Shown here: piece by piece, positions 19,026 through 24,381 of the stretch | Numbering within the stretch: position 1 is the stretch's first letter | How the letters are laid out: each line of letters begins with the position of its first letter | Source of the DNA: Thermoplasmatales archaeon BRNA1 | GTDB taxonomy: Archaea; Thermoplasmatota; Thermoplasmata; Methanomassiliicoccales; Methanomethylophilaceae | Length of the DNA stretch: 64,000 bases | Direction: 5' to 3' | Assembly (NCBI GenBank): GCA_000350305.1 | Contig: CP002916.1 | Location: forward strand, 558,001-622,000 | Position numbers and translations under genes: made by a program | The notes under the pieces: generated by a model | Seen by the model: only the letters and a program-made list of their open reading frames with translations | Databases searched by the model: none | Told to the model about the DNA's origin: nothing

Positions 19026-19283
19026 ATGCCAGACGAGAGATACGGCAAATGCGACGTATGCAGGTACTGTGTCCACGACGGCGACGACTGGGCCTGCATG
19101 ATCAACAACAAGGTGACCTCCGCAAAGGGGTCCTGCGAGCGGTACCGCCCCGGGACCTGCGAGAACTGCTCCCATGCCGAGATCGTCTTTGGCGTGGTCA
19201 AGTGCGGCCTCACCGGCGAGGAGACCGACGAGCTCAACGTCTGCAGCGATTACGACCCCTGCGGCCGCAACTCGCTTCAGTAA
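19026..19283 (+). CDS. Small protein with two identical-spacing cysteine repeats
   Basis: 85 residues with 10 cysteines. Two copies of the pattern CX2C-X11-C-X12-C-X2-Y are seen, at residues 9-40 and 45-76, an internal duplication that probably binds two metal ions. TATA (GTTTATCT, about 18992-18999) and GGAGGT before the ATG support expression. The 3' end overlaps the convergent gene by 7 bases. No family recognised. Confidence 0.7.
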   Translation: MPDERYGKCDVCRYCVHDGDDWACMINNKVTSAKGSCERYRPGTCENCSHAEIVFGVVKCGLTGEETDELNVCSDYDPCGRNSLQ

Positions 19284-20191
19284 GTGGCGGTCCTGCCGTT
19301 CCTCAGCTGCAGCGCATTCTTCACGCTGAGCTTGGCCTCGCCGCGTCCCGCGATGGCCTTCCTGGCGGAGTCCGGAACGCCGAAGTAGACGATGTTATCC
19401 GTGACACCGGTCAGGCCCTTCATGCTCTTCCTGACCCTGGCGTAGGAGTCCTGTAAAGAGGCCATGGACTGCTTCACGGTTTCGGCTATCTGGTACATGT
19501 TGGCGTCCATGTATTCCTTACGGTTCACGAAACGGTCGCAGGAGACCAGGAACGGGTTGAACGTGCCGTCGGTGTAATCGTCCTCGAGGTCGTCCACCGC
19601 ATCCATAACGTACACCGCGGAGGTGAGGGCTGTGAACAGTTCCCTGAGGTCCGGCGAATCGTCCTCCCCGGCGATGTCCCCGAGGGGCTCCGCAAGGTAT
19701 CTCCCGAACTCCCTTCCCATGAAGACTGCATCGGAGCATTCTTTGTGCTCCAGCTCCCTCAGTCTCGCGAATCCCTCCCCCACGGTCCTGTCGTACTCCG
19801 GGAACCTCTCCTCCGCCTTGGCGATGGCCTTGGAGAGGGTAAGGTCCACGAACCGGGTCCTGACCGAGGGCTTGTCCACCATATCGTCGTAGAGCTCCCA
19901 CTTCGTGAGGAGCATGGTGTATCCGGCCATGCTGCGGAAGATGTCCGAATCCGCCCTGGGATTCCTGAAAACGCACGCGGGTCCCTTGGGCGTGCAGTCG
20001 AAGTACATCGCATCCCCCCTGAGGGCCTCCAGGACGATCAGGTTGAACGTCATGTCGTAGTTGACCGCGGCCGTGGATGCCACCCCGTATCCGTCCTTCA
20101 GCTGGTGGCAGGTCTCGCAGTAGAACCTCTGATAGTCGCCGAGGTCCGTTGCGGACATGCGCTGATAGTACGGGATGGTGTATCCGAACAT
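19277..20191 (-). CDS. DUF5685-like family protein
   Basis: 304 residues starting MFGYTIPYYQ, with YCETCHQLKDGYG near residue 25, NYDMTFNL near 45 and DAVDDLEDDYTDGTFNPF near 205. I recognise this as the pattern of the DUF5685 family, best known from Firmicutes; that match is from memory. The Asp-rich motif and all-helical look recall isoprenoid-synthase folds, but function is unknown. MFGY at 20191 is used as start because a TATA (TTTTATCT, about 20214-20222) lies about 25 bases upstream; ATG 20203 is possible. It is divergent from the Cys-rich peptide and radical SAM genes. Confidence 0.65.
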   Translation of the reverse strand: MFGYTIPYYQRMSATDLGDYQRFYCETCHQLKDGYGVASTAAVNYDMTFNLIVLEALRGDAMYFDCTPKGPACVFRNPRADSDIFRSMAGYTMLLTKWELYDDMVDKPSVRTRFVDLTLSKAIAKAEERFPEYDRTVGEGFARLRELEHKECSDAVFMGREFGRYLAEPLGDIAGEDDSPDLRELFTALTSAVYVMDAVDDLEDDYTDGTFNPFLVSCDRFVNRKEYMDANMYQIAETVKQSMASLQDSYARVRKSMKGLTGVTDNIVYFGVPDSARKAIAGRGEAKLSVKNALQLRNGRTATY

Positions 20192-20319
20192 CGCACATAC
20201 CATCCCCCAACGGATAGATAAAAAGCGCGTTGCTGGCGCATAAAATCCCTACCCAATCATTCTTATATCTTAAAGCGGTTCGGGAAACTATTACGGCCAG
20301 CAATGGCTAGGGTGAGCAA

Positions 20320-20613
20320 ATGTCACAGTCTTTCGAAGACCTTATCGCCTCTTACATGAGCCAGTCCCCTTCCGCTTTCATGGCGGTCGCCATCGAGACC
20401 GGCGAGCCCGAAGTCAAAGATTACAACGCCCCCAAGAACGCTGAGATCGAGGGCGGAGACGGACTCTGCTACGACTGCTGCTGCGACGACAGGGGATGCT
20501 GCAAGACTCCCGCCCAGCACCTGGCCTGCGCCGCGATGCTCGTCGTCTGCGTGGTCTGCTGCTGTTACGTCACCGACGGATTCTTCGGTCTCTGGACCTA
20601 CTGGCCGTTCTGA
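20320..20613 (+). CDS. Cysteine-rich small peptide, candidate RiPP precursor
   Basis: 97 residues. The first ~48 residues are polar and acidic (leader-like, no Cys). The rest has 11 cysteines (positions 50, 53-55, 60, 61, 70, 77, 80-82), several in CCC or CC runs, and ends in an aromatic tail FFGLWTYWPF. Residues 68-84 are also hydrophobic enough for one membrane helix, so a small membrane metalloprotein is an alternative. TATA CTTATATC (about 20262-20269) and GGTGA before ATG 20320. Only 11 bases separate it from the radical SAM gene. Confidence 0.6.
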   Translation: MSQSFEDLIASYMSQSPSAFMAVAIETGEPEVKDYNAPKNAEIEGGDGLCYDCCCDDRGCCKTPAQHLACAAMLVVCVVCCCYVTDGFFGLWTYWPF

Positions 20614-20624
20614 TCCGGTAACGC

Positions 20625-21764
20625 ATGAACCGCTACCTGTCGGTCATTATCAAACCCACCCTAGCCTGCAATATGGCTTGCAGGCACTGCTACCATTCCC
20701 CGGAGGAGAGGTCCTCCGAGGGAAGGATATCTTTTGAGAGACTCGAGAAACTTTTCAGGATCGCTTCCCGCGACTACGAGTCCGTATGGTTCATATGGCA
20801 CGGAGGGGAGCCCCTCGAGCTCCCCCTGTCCTTCTGGAAGAAGGCCATCGAGCTGCAGGAGAAGTACTTCGGGAACCACACCTGCGGCAACACCATACAG
20901 ACCAACGGCCTGAACATCGACAGGAAGTTCCTGGAGTTCTGCAGGAAGAAGCAGATCAACATCGGCGTCTCCCACGAGGGACCCTACGACGACCTCCTCA
21001 GGACCGACTGCTCCAAGGTGGAGGATACCATCAGGAAGATGTCCGACAAGGGAAGGGTGTTCTCCGTCAGCTCCACCATATCCAAGGGCGACGAATCCTC
21101 CCAGCTGGAGATCTACCGCCACTTCAGCGACATCGGGACCTCGCTGAGCATGGTCCCCGTGATCCCCGCGGGGTGTGCCGCAGCCCACAGGGAACTGGTT
21201 CCCGATCCGGACGCATACATCAGGTCGAGCATCGAGGCCTTCGATGCCTGGCTGCACGACAGGGATACCGAGATGCCCCTCAGCCCCCACTTCCTCTACG
21301 TCATGTCAGCTCTGGGGGATCCCCAGCCCTCGGACTGCGCCCACAGCTCCTGCCTGACCAGGTGGGTCTGCCTGTACCCAAACGGCGACCTGTATCCCTG
21401 CGCCAAGGCGTGCCCTTCCTCGATGAAGCTCTGCAATATCGACTCCGTCAATGCGGTCCCCGAGGCATTCAGGACCGAGGGATTCGCGGAGATCCTGAAG
21501 GGGACCATCGCCCGCAGGGAGAAGTGCCAGAAGTGCGATGTCTACGACTACTGCCAGGGCGGATGCAGCATCGACGCCTATTACGAGGAAGGCATCGGGA
21601 ACAACGGGAACCCCTCCTGCCGGATCTTTAGGGAGGTCTTCCTCCACATCAAGAAGGAGATGGATTCCATCATCTCCGAGAAGAAGGACCTGTCCCAATA
21701 CAACAGGTTCGTCAGGGACGCGGTACTCGGGAAGCTGGTAAACCCCGTTATGCAGTCCCCGTGA
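20625..21764 (+). CDS. Radical SAM / SPASM-domain peptide-modifying enzyme
   Basis: 379 residues. The [4Fe-4S]-SAM motif CX3CX2C is at Cys15/19/22, followed by GGEP at 60-63. The C-terminal SPASM-type cluster region has CLYPNGDLYPCAKAC and CQKCDVYDYCQGGC. Architecture matches anaerobic sulfatase maturases and RiPP maturases (sactipeptide, thioether and related). The gene lies 11 bases after a Cys-rich peptide gene, the usual substrate position. No sulfatase gene is nearby. Actual chemistry is unknown. Confidence 0.88.
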   Translation: MNRYLSVIIKPTLACNMACRHCYHSPEERSSEGRISFERLEKLFRIASRDYESVWFIWHGGEPLELPLSFWKKAIELQEKYFGNHTCGNTIQTNGLNIDRKFLEFCRKKQINIGVSHEGPYDDLLRTDCSKVEDTIRKMSDKGRVFSVSSTISKGDESSQLEIYRHFSDIGTSLSMVPVIPAGCAAAHRELVPDPDAYIRSSIEAFDAWLHDRDTEMPLSPHFLYVMSALGDPQPSDCAHSSCLTRWVCLYPNGDLYPCAKACPSSMKLCNIDSVNAVPEAFRTEGFAEILKGTIARREKCQKCDVYDYCQGGCSIDAYYEEGIGNNGNPSCRIFREVFLHIKKEMDSIISEKKDLSQYNRFVRDAVLGKLVNPVMQSP

Positions 21765-22142: not shown

Positions 22143-22526
22143 TCATTCGGTCCTGACGCCGATGGCGGAGACCATGATCTTGACGCCCTTCGGGAGGTTG
22201 GAGACCTCCACGCAGCTTCTGGCCGGGTAGGGCTCCCCGAAGTAATCCTTGTAAATCAGGTTCACGGTCTGGAAGTCCTCGATGTCGGTCAGGTACACGG
22301 TGACGGACACTATACCGTCCTTAGCGACATGTCCCGCCTCCAGGACTGCGATGACGTTCTTCAGGGCCTGGTTGGCCTGCTCTTCGATGGTCTCGCCGAC
22401 AGCACCGGTGTGGGGGTCGACGGGGATCTCGCCCGCGGTGAACACGAGGTTCCCGGCAGAGATTCCCTGGGAGTAGGGGCCCACCGCGAGGGGGGCTTCT
22501 TCGGTCTCGATTCTTTCGATGGCCAT
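22143..22526 (-). CDS. ridA: RidA family enamine/imine deaminase
   Basis: Hydrolyses reactive enamine/imine intermediates made by PLP enzymes. About 127 residues with family marks GPYSQG near the start, FTAGEIPVDP, NVIAVLEAAG-like helix and PARSCVEV (substrate-binding arginine). It ends the cysK-metA-ridA cluster, where PLP chemistry by CysK and MetY makes such a protector useful. ATG 22526 has AAGGA six bases upstream; ATG 22532, overlapping the metA stop, would add two residues. Confidence 0.92.
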   Translation of the reverse strand: MAIERIETEEAPLAVGPYSQGISAGNLVFTAGEIPVDPHTGAVGETIEEQANQALKNVIAVLEAGHVAKDGIVSVTVYLTDIEDFQTVNLIYKDYFGEPYPARSCVEVSNLPKGVKIMVSAIGVRTE

Positions 22527-22528
22527 GT

Positions 22529-23452
22529 TCATTCCTTTCCTACGTCGTTCAGGTCGAACGGCGTGTTCTGATAGATGTAGTAGTTCAGCCAGTTCCCGAA
22601 TATCAGGTTGGCGGTGCTCCTCCAGGTCATCAGCGGGTCCCTGGAGGGGTCGTCGTCGGGGAAGTAGTGGTAGGGTACGTGGGGGTTCATTCCCCTTCCA
22701 AGGTCCCTGTAGTACTCGTAGGACAGGGTCTTGGCGTCGTACTCCATGTGTCCGGTGATGAAAACCTGGTTGGCCTTCTCGCTGATCACTATGCCTACGC
22801 CCGCCTCATCGGAGACGGCGATGATGTGGAGGTGGGGGTTCTTGAGGATGTCCCTCGCCCTGACCTCGGTGTGGCGGGAGTGGGGGAACCAGAAGACGTC
22901 GTCGCATCCCCTAAGGAGGGGGTCGTCGCCGACCAGCGCCCTGTGGGGGAACACCCCGGACATCTTCTCTTCCAGGGGGTACTTGTCGACCCCGTAGTGG
23001 TGGTACAGTCCGGCCTGGGCACCCCAGCAGATGTGCATGGTGCTGAAGACGTTCTTTACGGACCAATCCATGATCTCGCAGAGCTCGTCCCAGTAGTCGA
23101 CCTCGCTGAAGTCGATGTTCTCCACGGGCGCCCCTGTGATGATGAGGCCGTCCCATTTCCTGTCCTTGACCTCGTCGAATGTGGCGTAGAACTTGTCCAG
23201 GTACTCCTGGGAGATGTTCTTGCTGACGTGGGTGGACATCTGCAGCAGGGTGACGTTGATCTGGAGAGGGGTGTTGGAGAGCAGCCTCATGATCTGGATC
23301 TCGGTCTCCACCTTGGTAGGCATGAGATTCAGGACGATGATCTCCAGGGGACGGATGTCCTGGGTGTCCGCCCTGTCCTGCCTCATGACGAAGAGGTTCT
23401 CCTCCTCGAGGACTGTGGCGGCGGGCAGGTCGTTAGGTACTTTGATCGGCAT
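22529..23452 (-). CDS. metA: Homoserine O-acyltransferase (MetA type)
   Basis: Activates homoserine by O-acylation for homocysteine synthesis. 307 residues of the HTS/MetA family: [13 protein letters not shown] near the N-terminus, the nucleophile cysteine in [16 protein letters not shown], and FPHSRHTEV followed by [10 protein letters not shown]. Many MetA proteins use acetyl-CoA, and the MetY-type enzyme at the window's left edge fits O-acetylhomoserine as product. It lies 20 bases after cysK and is followed with overlap by ridA. Confidence 0.94.
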
Positions 23453-23472
23453 TTTTCCCCTCCTTCCGTAGT

Positions 23473-24381
23473 TCAGTCGTATATCCCCGTGCTCACGTAC
23501 TTGTCGCCGCCGTCCGGGAGGATGGCCACGACCTTGGAGCCGGGGTGTCTCTGTGCGATCTCGATCGCCTTGAATACGTTCGCTCCCGCGGATATTCCGC
23601 AGAAGATCCCTTCTTCGCGGGCGAGCCTGCGGGCAGTTGCGACAGCGTCGTCACCCTTCACGGTCTCGATGGTGCCGACGACGTCCCTGTCAAGGTTCCC
23701 GGGGACGAAGTTCGCCCCGATGCCCTGTATCTTATGGGGCCCGGCGGACCCCGAGGAGACCAGTGCGCTCTCCGCGGGCTCTACGGCGATGACCTTCCCG
23801 TCGGATCCAGCATCCTTCAGCGCCCATGCGATACCCGAGGCGGTGCCTCCGGTCCCGAATCCCGCAACCACGAAGTCAACGTCGGGGAGGTCTGCGAGGA
23901 TCTCCCTTCCGGTGGTGGTGCGGTGGGCGAGGATGTTGGCGGGGTTGTCGAACTGTCCCGCGATGATCGAGTTGGGTGTGCATGCGCAGAGCTCGTTTGC
24001 CTTGTCGACGCTGCCCTGCATTCCGAGTTTCCCGGGGGTGAGGACGACCTCCGCCCCGTAGGCCTTCATGAGCGCTATGCGCTCCTTGGTCATCGTGTCG
24101 GGCATGACCATGACGGCCTTGTAGCCCCTCGCTGCGGCTATCATGGCGATAGCGATTCCGGTGTTCCCGGACGTGGGTTCGATGATGGTCCCTCCTGGGG
24201 ACAGTCTGCCCTTGGCCTCAGCATCGTTGATGATCGAGAGAACCGCACGGTCCTTGATGGACCCCCCGGGGTTTCCCCTCTCGATTTTCACATACACGGA
24301 GCTTCCCGCGGGAGACATCCTACCGAGGCGCACTAGGGGAGTGTTCCCTATGGTCTCGGTGATGCTGTTGAAGATTGCCAT
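23473..24381 (-). CDS. cysK: Cysteine synthase (O-acetylserine sulfhydrylase type)
   Basis: PLP enzyme forming cysteine from an activated serine and sulfide. 302 residues; PLP lysine in [10 protein letters not shown] (near residue 44), SGNTGIA for the substrate loop, [10 protein letters not shown] for phosphate binding. First gene of the cluster with metA and ridA; TATA-like TTATTAATAC (about 24403-24412) gives an almost leaderless start at 24381. Some archaeal members use O-phosphoserine; the sequence alone does not decide. Confidence 0.92.

Follow-up and report, generated by a model that had tools for sequence, protein, structure and literature searches.

Thermoplasmatales archaeon BRNA1 carries, in the 64,000-nucleotide window analyzed here (contig CP002916.1, positions 558,001 to 622,000), three genes that appear to form a peptide-modification cassette: a short Cys-rich peptide, a radical S-adenosylmethionine (SAM) enzyme with a SPASM domain, and a facing gene of the DUF5685 family. 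We give an about even chance to the interpretation that the DUF5685 protein prenylates the Cys-rich tail or the C-terminal Trp of the peptide, with the radical SAM enzyme acting as a second modifier. The wider proposal, that DUF5685 proteins prenylate proteins or peptides at Cys-rich C-terminal tails in prokaryotes, bacterial and archaeal alike, and that the archaeal version works together with a radical SAM enzyme on one small membrane peptide, is tentative and in our judgment more probably wrong than right. An earlier note on this DNA had described the locus as a candidate for a ribosomally synthesized and post-translationally modified peptide (RiPP). The features are listed below by position within the window.

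19277 to 20191, minus strand: DUF5685 protein (PF18937), putative prenyl transferase, 304 amino acids (aa); from Pfam, AlphaFold2, Foldseek and a 37-member alignment.
20192 to 20319, no strand: divergent intergenic region, presumed promoter, 128 bp, with AT-rich CTTATATCTT near 20262.
20320 to 20613, plus strand: Cys-rich precursor or substrate peptide, 97 aa; from the open reading frame and 56 distinct homologues.
20625 to 21764, plus strand: radical SAM/SPASM enzyme, 379 aa; from NCBIfam and Pfam, solved-structure matches and a 27-sequence alignment.

The open reading frame bears out the peptide anatomy given in the earlier note. The 11 Cys all lie in the second half (positions 50, 53-55, 60-61, 70, 77, and 80-82), while residues 1-48 contain none and have a net charge of -7; this acidic half carries a conserved SQSP-AF motif. 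The Cys pattern CxxCCC...CC is followed by a hydrophobic segment and the C-terminal CCCYVTDGFFGLWTYWPF. Among 19-residue stretches, 67-85 is the most hydrophobic (mean Kyte-Doolittle value 2.27), and a hydrophobic window of this length is found in all members of the peptide family (1.6-2.7). When 56 distinct archaeal peptides were aligned, we observed an invariant first Cys and a CC pair in the form CxxCC, a further CC or CCC that precedes Tyr (one variant has CCW), then Trp-Pro and a final F, N, Y, or L, so that Trp is the third residue from the C-terminal end. The peptide collection demanded WP near the end, and the WP conservation is therefore partly built in; every complete locus follows this rule except L096, in which the frame runs beyond WPF. 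The tails divide the peptides into two sub-families, ...CCCYxTxGFxGxWTYWPF and ...CCAYxxDGxCCxYCYWPF. Pfam, NCBIfam, and PADLOC gave no match for the peptide. Among the 497 frames of the window (stop-to-stop, at least 60 aa), it alone has at least 11 Cys in the last 50 residues. Because of this unique Cys density and the protein-level conservation in relatives, we conclude that the peptide family is real and above chance.

The enzyme gene follows after an 11-base gap (the peptide stop ends at 20613 and the ATG is at 20625), as had been claimed. The protein contains C15-x3-C19-x2-C22, a GGE motif and a full set of SPASM cysteines, and the radical SAM motif, the GGE-type motif and the SPASM cysteines are kept across 27 aligned homologues. 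The best radical SAM/SPASM maturase profiles are those of the dynobactin and darobactin maturases DynA (NF041298; 165.8 bits vs. a curated cut-off of 450) and DarE (82.8 vs. 650) and of GrrM/OscB (GrrM profile, 77.4 vs. 310), all far below the cut-offs, and the precursor is unrelated. TIGR04083 (rSAM_pep_methan), which NCBIfam calls a "peptide-modifying radical SAM enzyme," is matched by all 27 homologues and scores 96.4 bits for the window enzyme, below the cut-off of 300. The profiles of PapB and the SCIFF maturase, which stand for thioether RiPPs (ranthipeptides and sactipeptides), score 57.4 and 50.7 bits (cut-offs 340 and 425). Judged by profile score, the nearest enzymes (DynA, DarE, and GrrM) are C-C/C-O crosslinkers rather than thioether formers.

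The second-best profile is TIGR03942 (anaerobic sulfatase maturase), with 148.6 bits vs. a cut-off of 349.45, and among solved structures the best matches are to anaerobic sulfatase maturases (4k36, 2e-43; 4k37), besides a further radical SAM protein, 5wgg. The enzyme might thus be a sulfatase maturase and the peptide incidental, an outcome that the earlier note had tied to a sulfatase encoded elsewhere. However, the complete genome (a single contig of 1.46 Mb, completeness 99.7%) has no match to the sulfatase family PF00884, which was detected in 10 of 14 control genomes. This refutes the explanation for this genome. Since the score is also far under the cut-off and the pairing with the peptide is strict, we rejected it as vanishingly improbable. 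The anaerobic sulfatase-maturating enzymes are sequence relatives with structures, whereas the cassette enzyme has its own dedicated peptide. With all profile scores far under their cut-offs and a sulfatase-free genome, the enzyme appears to belong to a separate peptide-modifying group, whose closest affinities are with C-C/C-O crosslinkers and sulfatase maturases, thioether formers being more distant. Anti-phage defense was also considered and rejected; PADLOC matched neither the peptide nor DUF5685 and gave no more than a weak viperin-like match for the radical SAM enzyme.

Co-occurrence was analyzed in 61 genomes (BRNA1 and 60 relatives). The enzyme is present in 29 of them. These 29 all have DUF5685 as well, and there is in addition a partial DUF5685 copy in genome G027 and a bacterial-type copy in G058. 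A peptide of the same kind is found in all 29 enzyme genomes: phmmer detected it in 23 of the 61, and six further genomes encode a divergent Cys-rich peptide ending WP-F, situated between the enzyme and DUF5685 genes. In one genome (G013) the set is broken by frameshifts. Neither the peptide nor a close relative of the enzyme is present in the genomes sampled from the order's other families. All three genes are missing in some members of the family (for example G005, G014, and G026); the set is thus optional in the family, but it moves together. A scan of 84,980 species yielded 61 archaeal DUF5685 loci. In 55 of these the three genes keep one divergent order, with the peptide and enzyme genes adjacent; these 55 are all the loci with complete flanks apart from L147, where DUF5685 stands alone with the peptide and enzyme genes approximately 20 kb away. 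The other five loci are cut at a contig end. The cassette contigs are labeled Candidatus Methanomethylophilus, Methanoplasma, or Methanomethylophilaceae (order Methanomassiliicoccales). No exporter or protease was co-conserved with the archaeal cassette in the neighborhood survey, and the literature searches made turned up no description of the three-gene cassette; "DUF5685" appeared in a single paper, which deals with uncharacterised Clostridioides difficile proteins. As a separate observation, the peptide and radical SAM genes of Candidatus Methanomethylophilus sp. 1R26 (L088) are frameshifted with DUF5685 intact, by decay or assembly error.

The RiPP interpretation of the earlier note is partly supported by these data, inasmuch as a short conserved peptide adjoins an enzyme of peptide-modifying type. 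In its full form, this explanation holds that crosslinks of thioether or C-C/C-O type are introduced by the radical SAM enzyme into a Cys-rich or aromatic core and that DUF5685 is an accessory or recognition protein whose prenyl chemistry is lost. The strict peptide-enzyme pairing is in its favor, as are the nearest profiles, which are peptide maturases (DynA, TIGR04083, DarE, and GrrM), and the conserved aromatic tail WTYWPF, which is like the targets of aromatic-crosslinking maturases.

The facing gene, called DUF5685-like in the earlier note, is indeed a family member, scoring 143.7 bits against PF18937 (Pfam cut-off 26.7). An alternative ATG at 20203, upstream, would add four residues; because homologues begin with MFGY, the true start is probably Met5 of that longer frame, at 20191. 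The protein has two aspartate motifs, DDxxD at 102-106 and DxxxDxxxD at 197-205. Among 37 archaeal and bacterial members, G3, Y24, C25, C28, C73, D102, E148, D197, D201, D205, and N212 are invariant and D106 is almost so. Two AlphaFold2 models (predicted local distance difference test 87.8 and 90.3; predicted template modeling (TM) score 0.87 and 0.89) are all-helical. For the better model, 49 of the 50 top Protein Data Bank (PDB) matches in Foldseek are isoprenoid-synthase or UbiA-type prenyl enzymes, including trans-prenyl synthases, terpene synthases, squalene synthase (HpnC), MoeN5, and UbiA-type prenyltransferases; the other model gave a similar result. In the model, D102-x3-D106 ends helix 83-106 and D197-x3-D201-x3-D205 ends helix 180-200, the two being separated by three helices. 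The aspartate motifs of trans-prenyl synthases are arranged in the same way, the first on helix D and the second on helix H, and this matching placement supports the isoprenoid-synthase resemblance. Among weak Pfam matches of DUF5685 members (E up to 10) there was one to SQS_PSY at 0.23, which was left uncounted, and a search of the DUF5685 profile against PDB sequences returned only meaningless antibody light-chain matches.

The family extends into Bacteria, where a DUF5685 locus on a Clostridia contig (L145) led us to the Bacillota. DUF5685 was found in 33 of 299 sampled genomes, and two more were added to give a set of 35. In 34 of the 35 genomes DUF5685 is linked to a Cys-rich C-terminal tail, compared with a background rate of 7 such tails in 772 genes. 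In 29 of the 35 the tail ends the product of the gene immediately downstream in the same orientation; most of these genes overlap DUF5685 or lie within 50 bp of it. One such tail is DCCQTLCTIWCCDSCCECVGCDIIECC. These partners are mostly J-domain proteins and some are TPR-like. In one genome (G476; L180:1501-2628) DUF5685 is fused to its own Cys-rich tail, with 14 Cys in the last 45 residues, and a polyprenyl synthase is encoded two genes downstream. In four others (G379, G483, G551, and G575) the Cys-tail gene lies approximately 4-8 kb from DUF5685. All four neighborhoods also encode a polyprenyl synthase together with a DUF2232-type membrane protein, and three of the four a DnaK-like protein; PF00348 polyprenyl synthases occur in five bacterial DUF5685 neighborhoods. 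The sole Bacillota genome without a Cys tail (G460) has a broken DUF5685. No radical SAM gene was seen beside bacterial DUF5685 in the examined flanks.

Three further observations concern the bacterial-type loci. Loci L263, L264, L271, and L267 encode a polyprenyl synthase, a DUF2232-type membrane protein and a Cys-tail protein, with a DnaK-like gene in the first three; these neighborhoods could possibly be a membrane-chaperone prenylation module. The copy in G058 (L269:6290-9596), from another family of Methanomassiliicoccales, has the bacterial arrangement of DUF5685, Cys-tail J-protein and DnaK, and looks like a gene transfer from bacteria. Thermotoga maritima gave the sole DUF5685 match among the 14 control genomes.

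Co-conserved with the peptide and the enzyme in a fixed order, and shared with bacteria, DUF5685 is a core component of the cassette; the earlier suggestion that it "may belong" was an understatement. The acidic motif residues are kept across bacteria and archaea, and the bacterial proteins pair with Cys tails with no radical SAM gene found beside them, which argues against a mere accessory role. For these reasons we find the radical SAM RiPP explanation doubtful. Prenyl transfer to the tail is in our opinion the simplest joint explanation, because the partners share the Cys tail and DUF5685 resembles a prenyl-transferring fold. The tails might alternatively bind a metal or Fe-S cluster, or make up a redox- or metal-sensing module in the membrane, with DUF5685 inserting or protecting the metal and no prenylation involved. 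The many CC and CxxC groups in the tails and the cysteines of DUF5685 itself (C25-x2-C28 and C73) would fit such a role, as would the anaerobic hosts and the chaperone partners in bacteria (J-domain and DnaK-like). We consider it unlikely, as it leaves unexplained the isoprenoid-synthase-like fold, the aspartate motifs and the polyprenyl synthase neighbors, and a good part of the archaeal Cys cluster falls within the hydrophobic segment. Still less probable, we think, is a role for DUF5685 in making small-molecule isoprenoids, as a synthase of squalene or phytoene type whose link to Cys tails reflects a membrane chaperone context rather than the identity of its substrate. The squalene synthase HpnC is indeed among the fold matches, as are many prenyl synthases, and the second motif is in register with the DxxxDxxxD/YLP region of phytoene synthase in a non-significant alignment. 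Against this, there are no other isoprenoid pathway genes within the archaeal cassette, and partners as varied as J-domain proteins, TPR proteins and a small membrane peptide share only the Cys tail, which in L180 is fused to DUF5685.

Peptide prenylation by enzymes of this general type is established in bacteria: ComQ, ChrPC-P, and PalQ are peptide prenyltransferases resembling trans-isoprenyl diphosphate synthases (PMC13290415, PMC10853753). Like the ComQ/ComX, PalQ/PalX, and ChrPC systems, DUF5685 has a first aspartate motif, a second or pseudo-second motif and an adjacent small peptide, and its modeled fold is remotely isoprenoid-synthase-like. ComQ requires a Trp 2-4 residues from the C-terminus (PMC5331326), and the archaeal peptide has a Trp within this window, third from the end. 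In contrast to those enzymes, DUF5685 has three invariant cysteines, its partners share Cys-rich tails, and in archaea it has a radical SAM partner; no significant sequence similarity between them was found. Eukaryotic protein farnesyl- and geranylgeranyltransferases act on, among others, J-proteins such as Ydj1, which are farnesylated. The Cys-rich or -CC C-termini of J-domain proteins, as proposed prenylation sites, and the proposed Cys-bound metal are reminiscent of Ydj1-type systems, whereas DUF5685 has a different fold and no sequence link to the eukaryotic enzymes.

In the proposed prenylation pathway, loci are by comparison organized around a Cys-rich peptide with a Trp-Pro end, encoded just upstream of the radical SAM gene, with DUF5685 across the divergent region that we presume to be the promoter. 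DUF5685 would bind a prenyl diphosphate through Mg2+ and its two aspartate motifs and pass the prenyl group on to the Cys-rich tail. The host genome encodes two PF00348 enzymes as possible suppliers of the donor. The likely acceptor is a cysteine thiol, since Cys-rich tails are common to the bacterial and archaeal partners and the bacterial tails lack the C-terminal Trp, and C25, C28, and C73 of DUF5685 could hold a thiolate-activating metal. Alternatively, the acceptor may be the invariant Trp of the peptide, as for ComQ with ComX. In the archaeal version, the radical SAM enzyme would then add a second oxidative modification, perhaps by crosslinking at Cys or in the aromatic tail. The product may stay inside the cell as a lipid-anchored membrane peptide. 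The hydrophobic segment favors the membrane-bound product suggested in the earlier note, as does the lack of any exporter or protease conserved with the cassette; retention itself we only infer. Bacterial DUF5685 would, by the same reaction, anchor J-domain or TPR proteins via their tails.

Several results weigh against this interpretation. The Foldseek E-values for DUF5685 are weak (best 0.0057) and the TM-scores are 0.3-0.5, with probability up to 1.00; the modeled similarity to the isoprenoid-synthase fold is thus best regarded as remote, not as identity. Profile-profile comparison of DUF5685 with phytoene or archaeal prenyl synthases, which used shallow alignments, was non-significant, although the positive control (phytoene vs. 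prenyl synthases) failed as well. The characterized bacterial trans-prenyl-synthase-like peptide enzymes all target Trp and have a Gln before the second motif (PMC13290415); this Gln is missing in the 37-member DUF5685 alignment, most members having Y-x-M/L/I-D there. A C-terminal Trp was not seen in the bacterial tails, and a Trp acceptor therefore cannot cover both domains. Finally, the enzyme at locus L053 (G015; the same organism as L142) has lost CX3CX2C and GGE, retaining the SPASM cysteines, and the peptide and DUF5685 are intact, which indicates that the radical chemistry is not required in every lineage. On the sequence features compared, the set is best classed as a peptide-modifying cassette with a prenyl-enzyme-like partner, one tested feature of ComQ-type membership, the Gln, being absent.

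Other genes lie around the cassette. At 19026-19283 (plus strand) an 85-aa protein with paired CxxC motifs is encoded tail-to-tail with DUF5685, overlapping its end. Homologues are present in 39 of the 61 archaeal DUF5685 loci, and the protein could be a fourth component or represent plain synteny. At 22143-24381 (minus strand) there are genes for RidA, cysteine synthase and a MetA-like homoserine acyl/succinyltransferase, and each of them occurs in 23-31 of the 61 loci. These metA/cysK/ridA neighbors, which are syntenic in part of the loci, were not counted as parts of the cassette; they may reflect a link to Cys and Met supply, or mere synteny.

In eukaryotes, Ras, Rab, and farnesylated J-proteins are anchored through Cys prenylation. 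As of 2017, no prokaryote had been found to isoprenylate cysteines (PMC5331326). If the proposal is true, it would mean S-prenylation of protein cysteines in prokaryotes by an isoprenoid-synthase-like fold unrelated to the eukaryotic CaaX and Rab enzymes, and would explain the Cys-tailed J-proteins of Bacillota. DUF5685 is a widespread family with no assigned function, nearly always found with Cys-rich tails and prenyl-enzyme-like in its predicted structure, so the question is directly testable. Prenylation, if true, would provide a function for DUF5685 and a new kind of archaeal peptide cassette. The cassette in gut methanogens of this one archaeal family may thus represent an unrecognised lipid attachment to proteins or peptides in prokaryotes.

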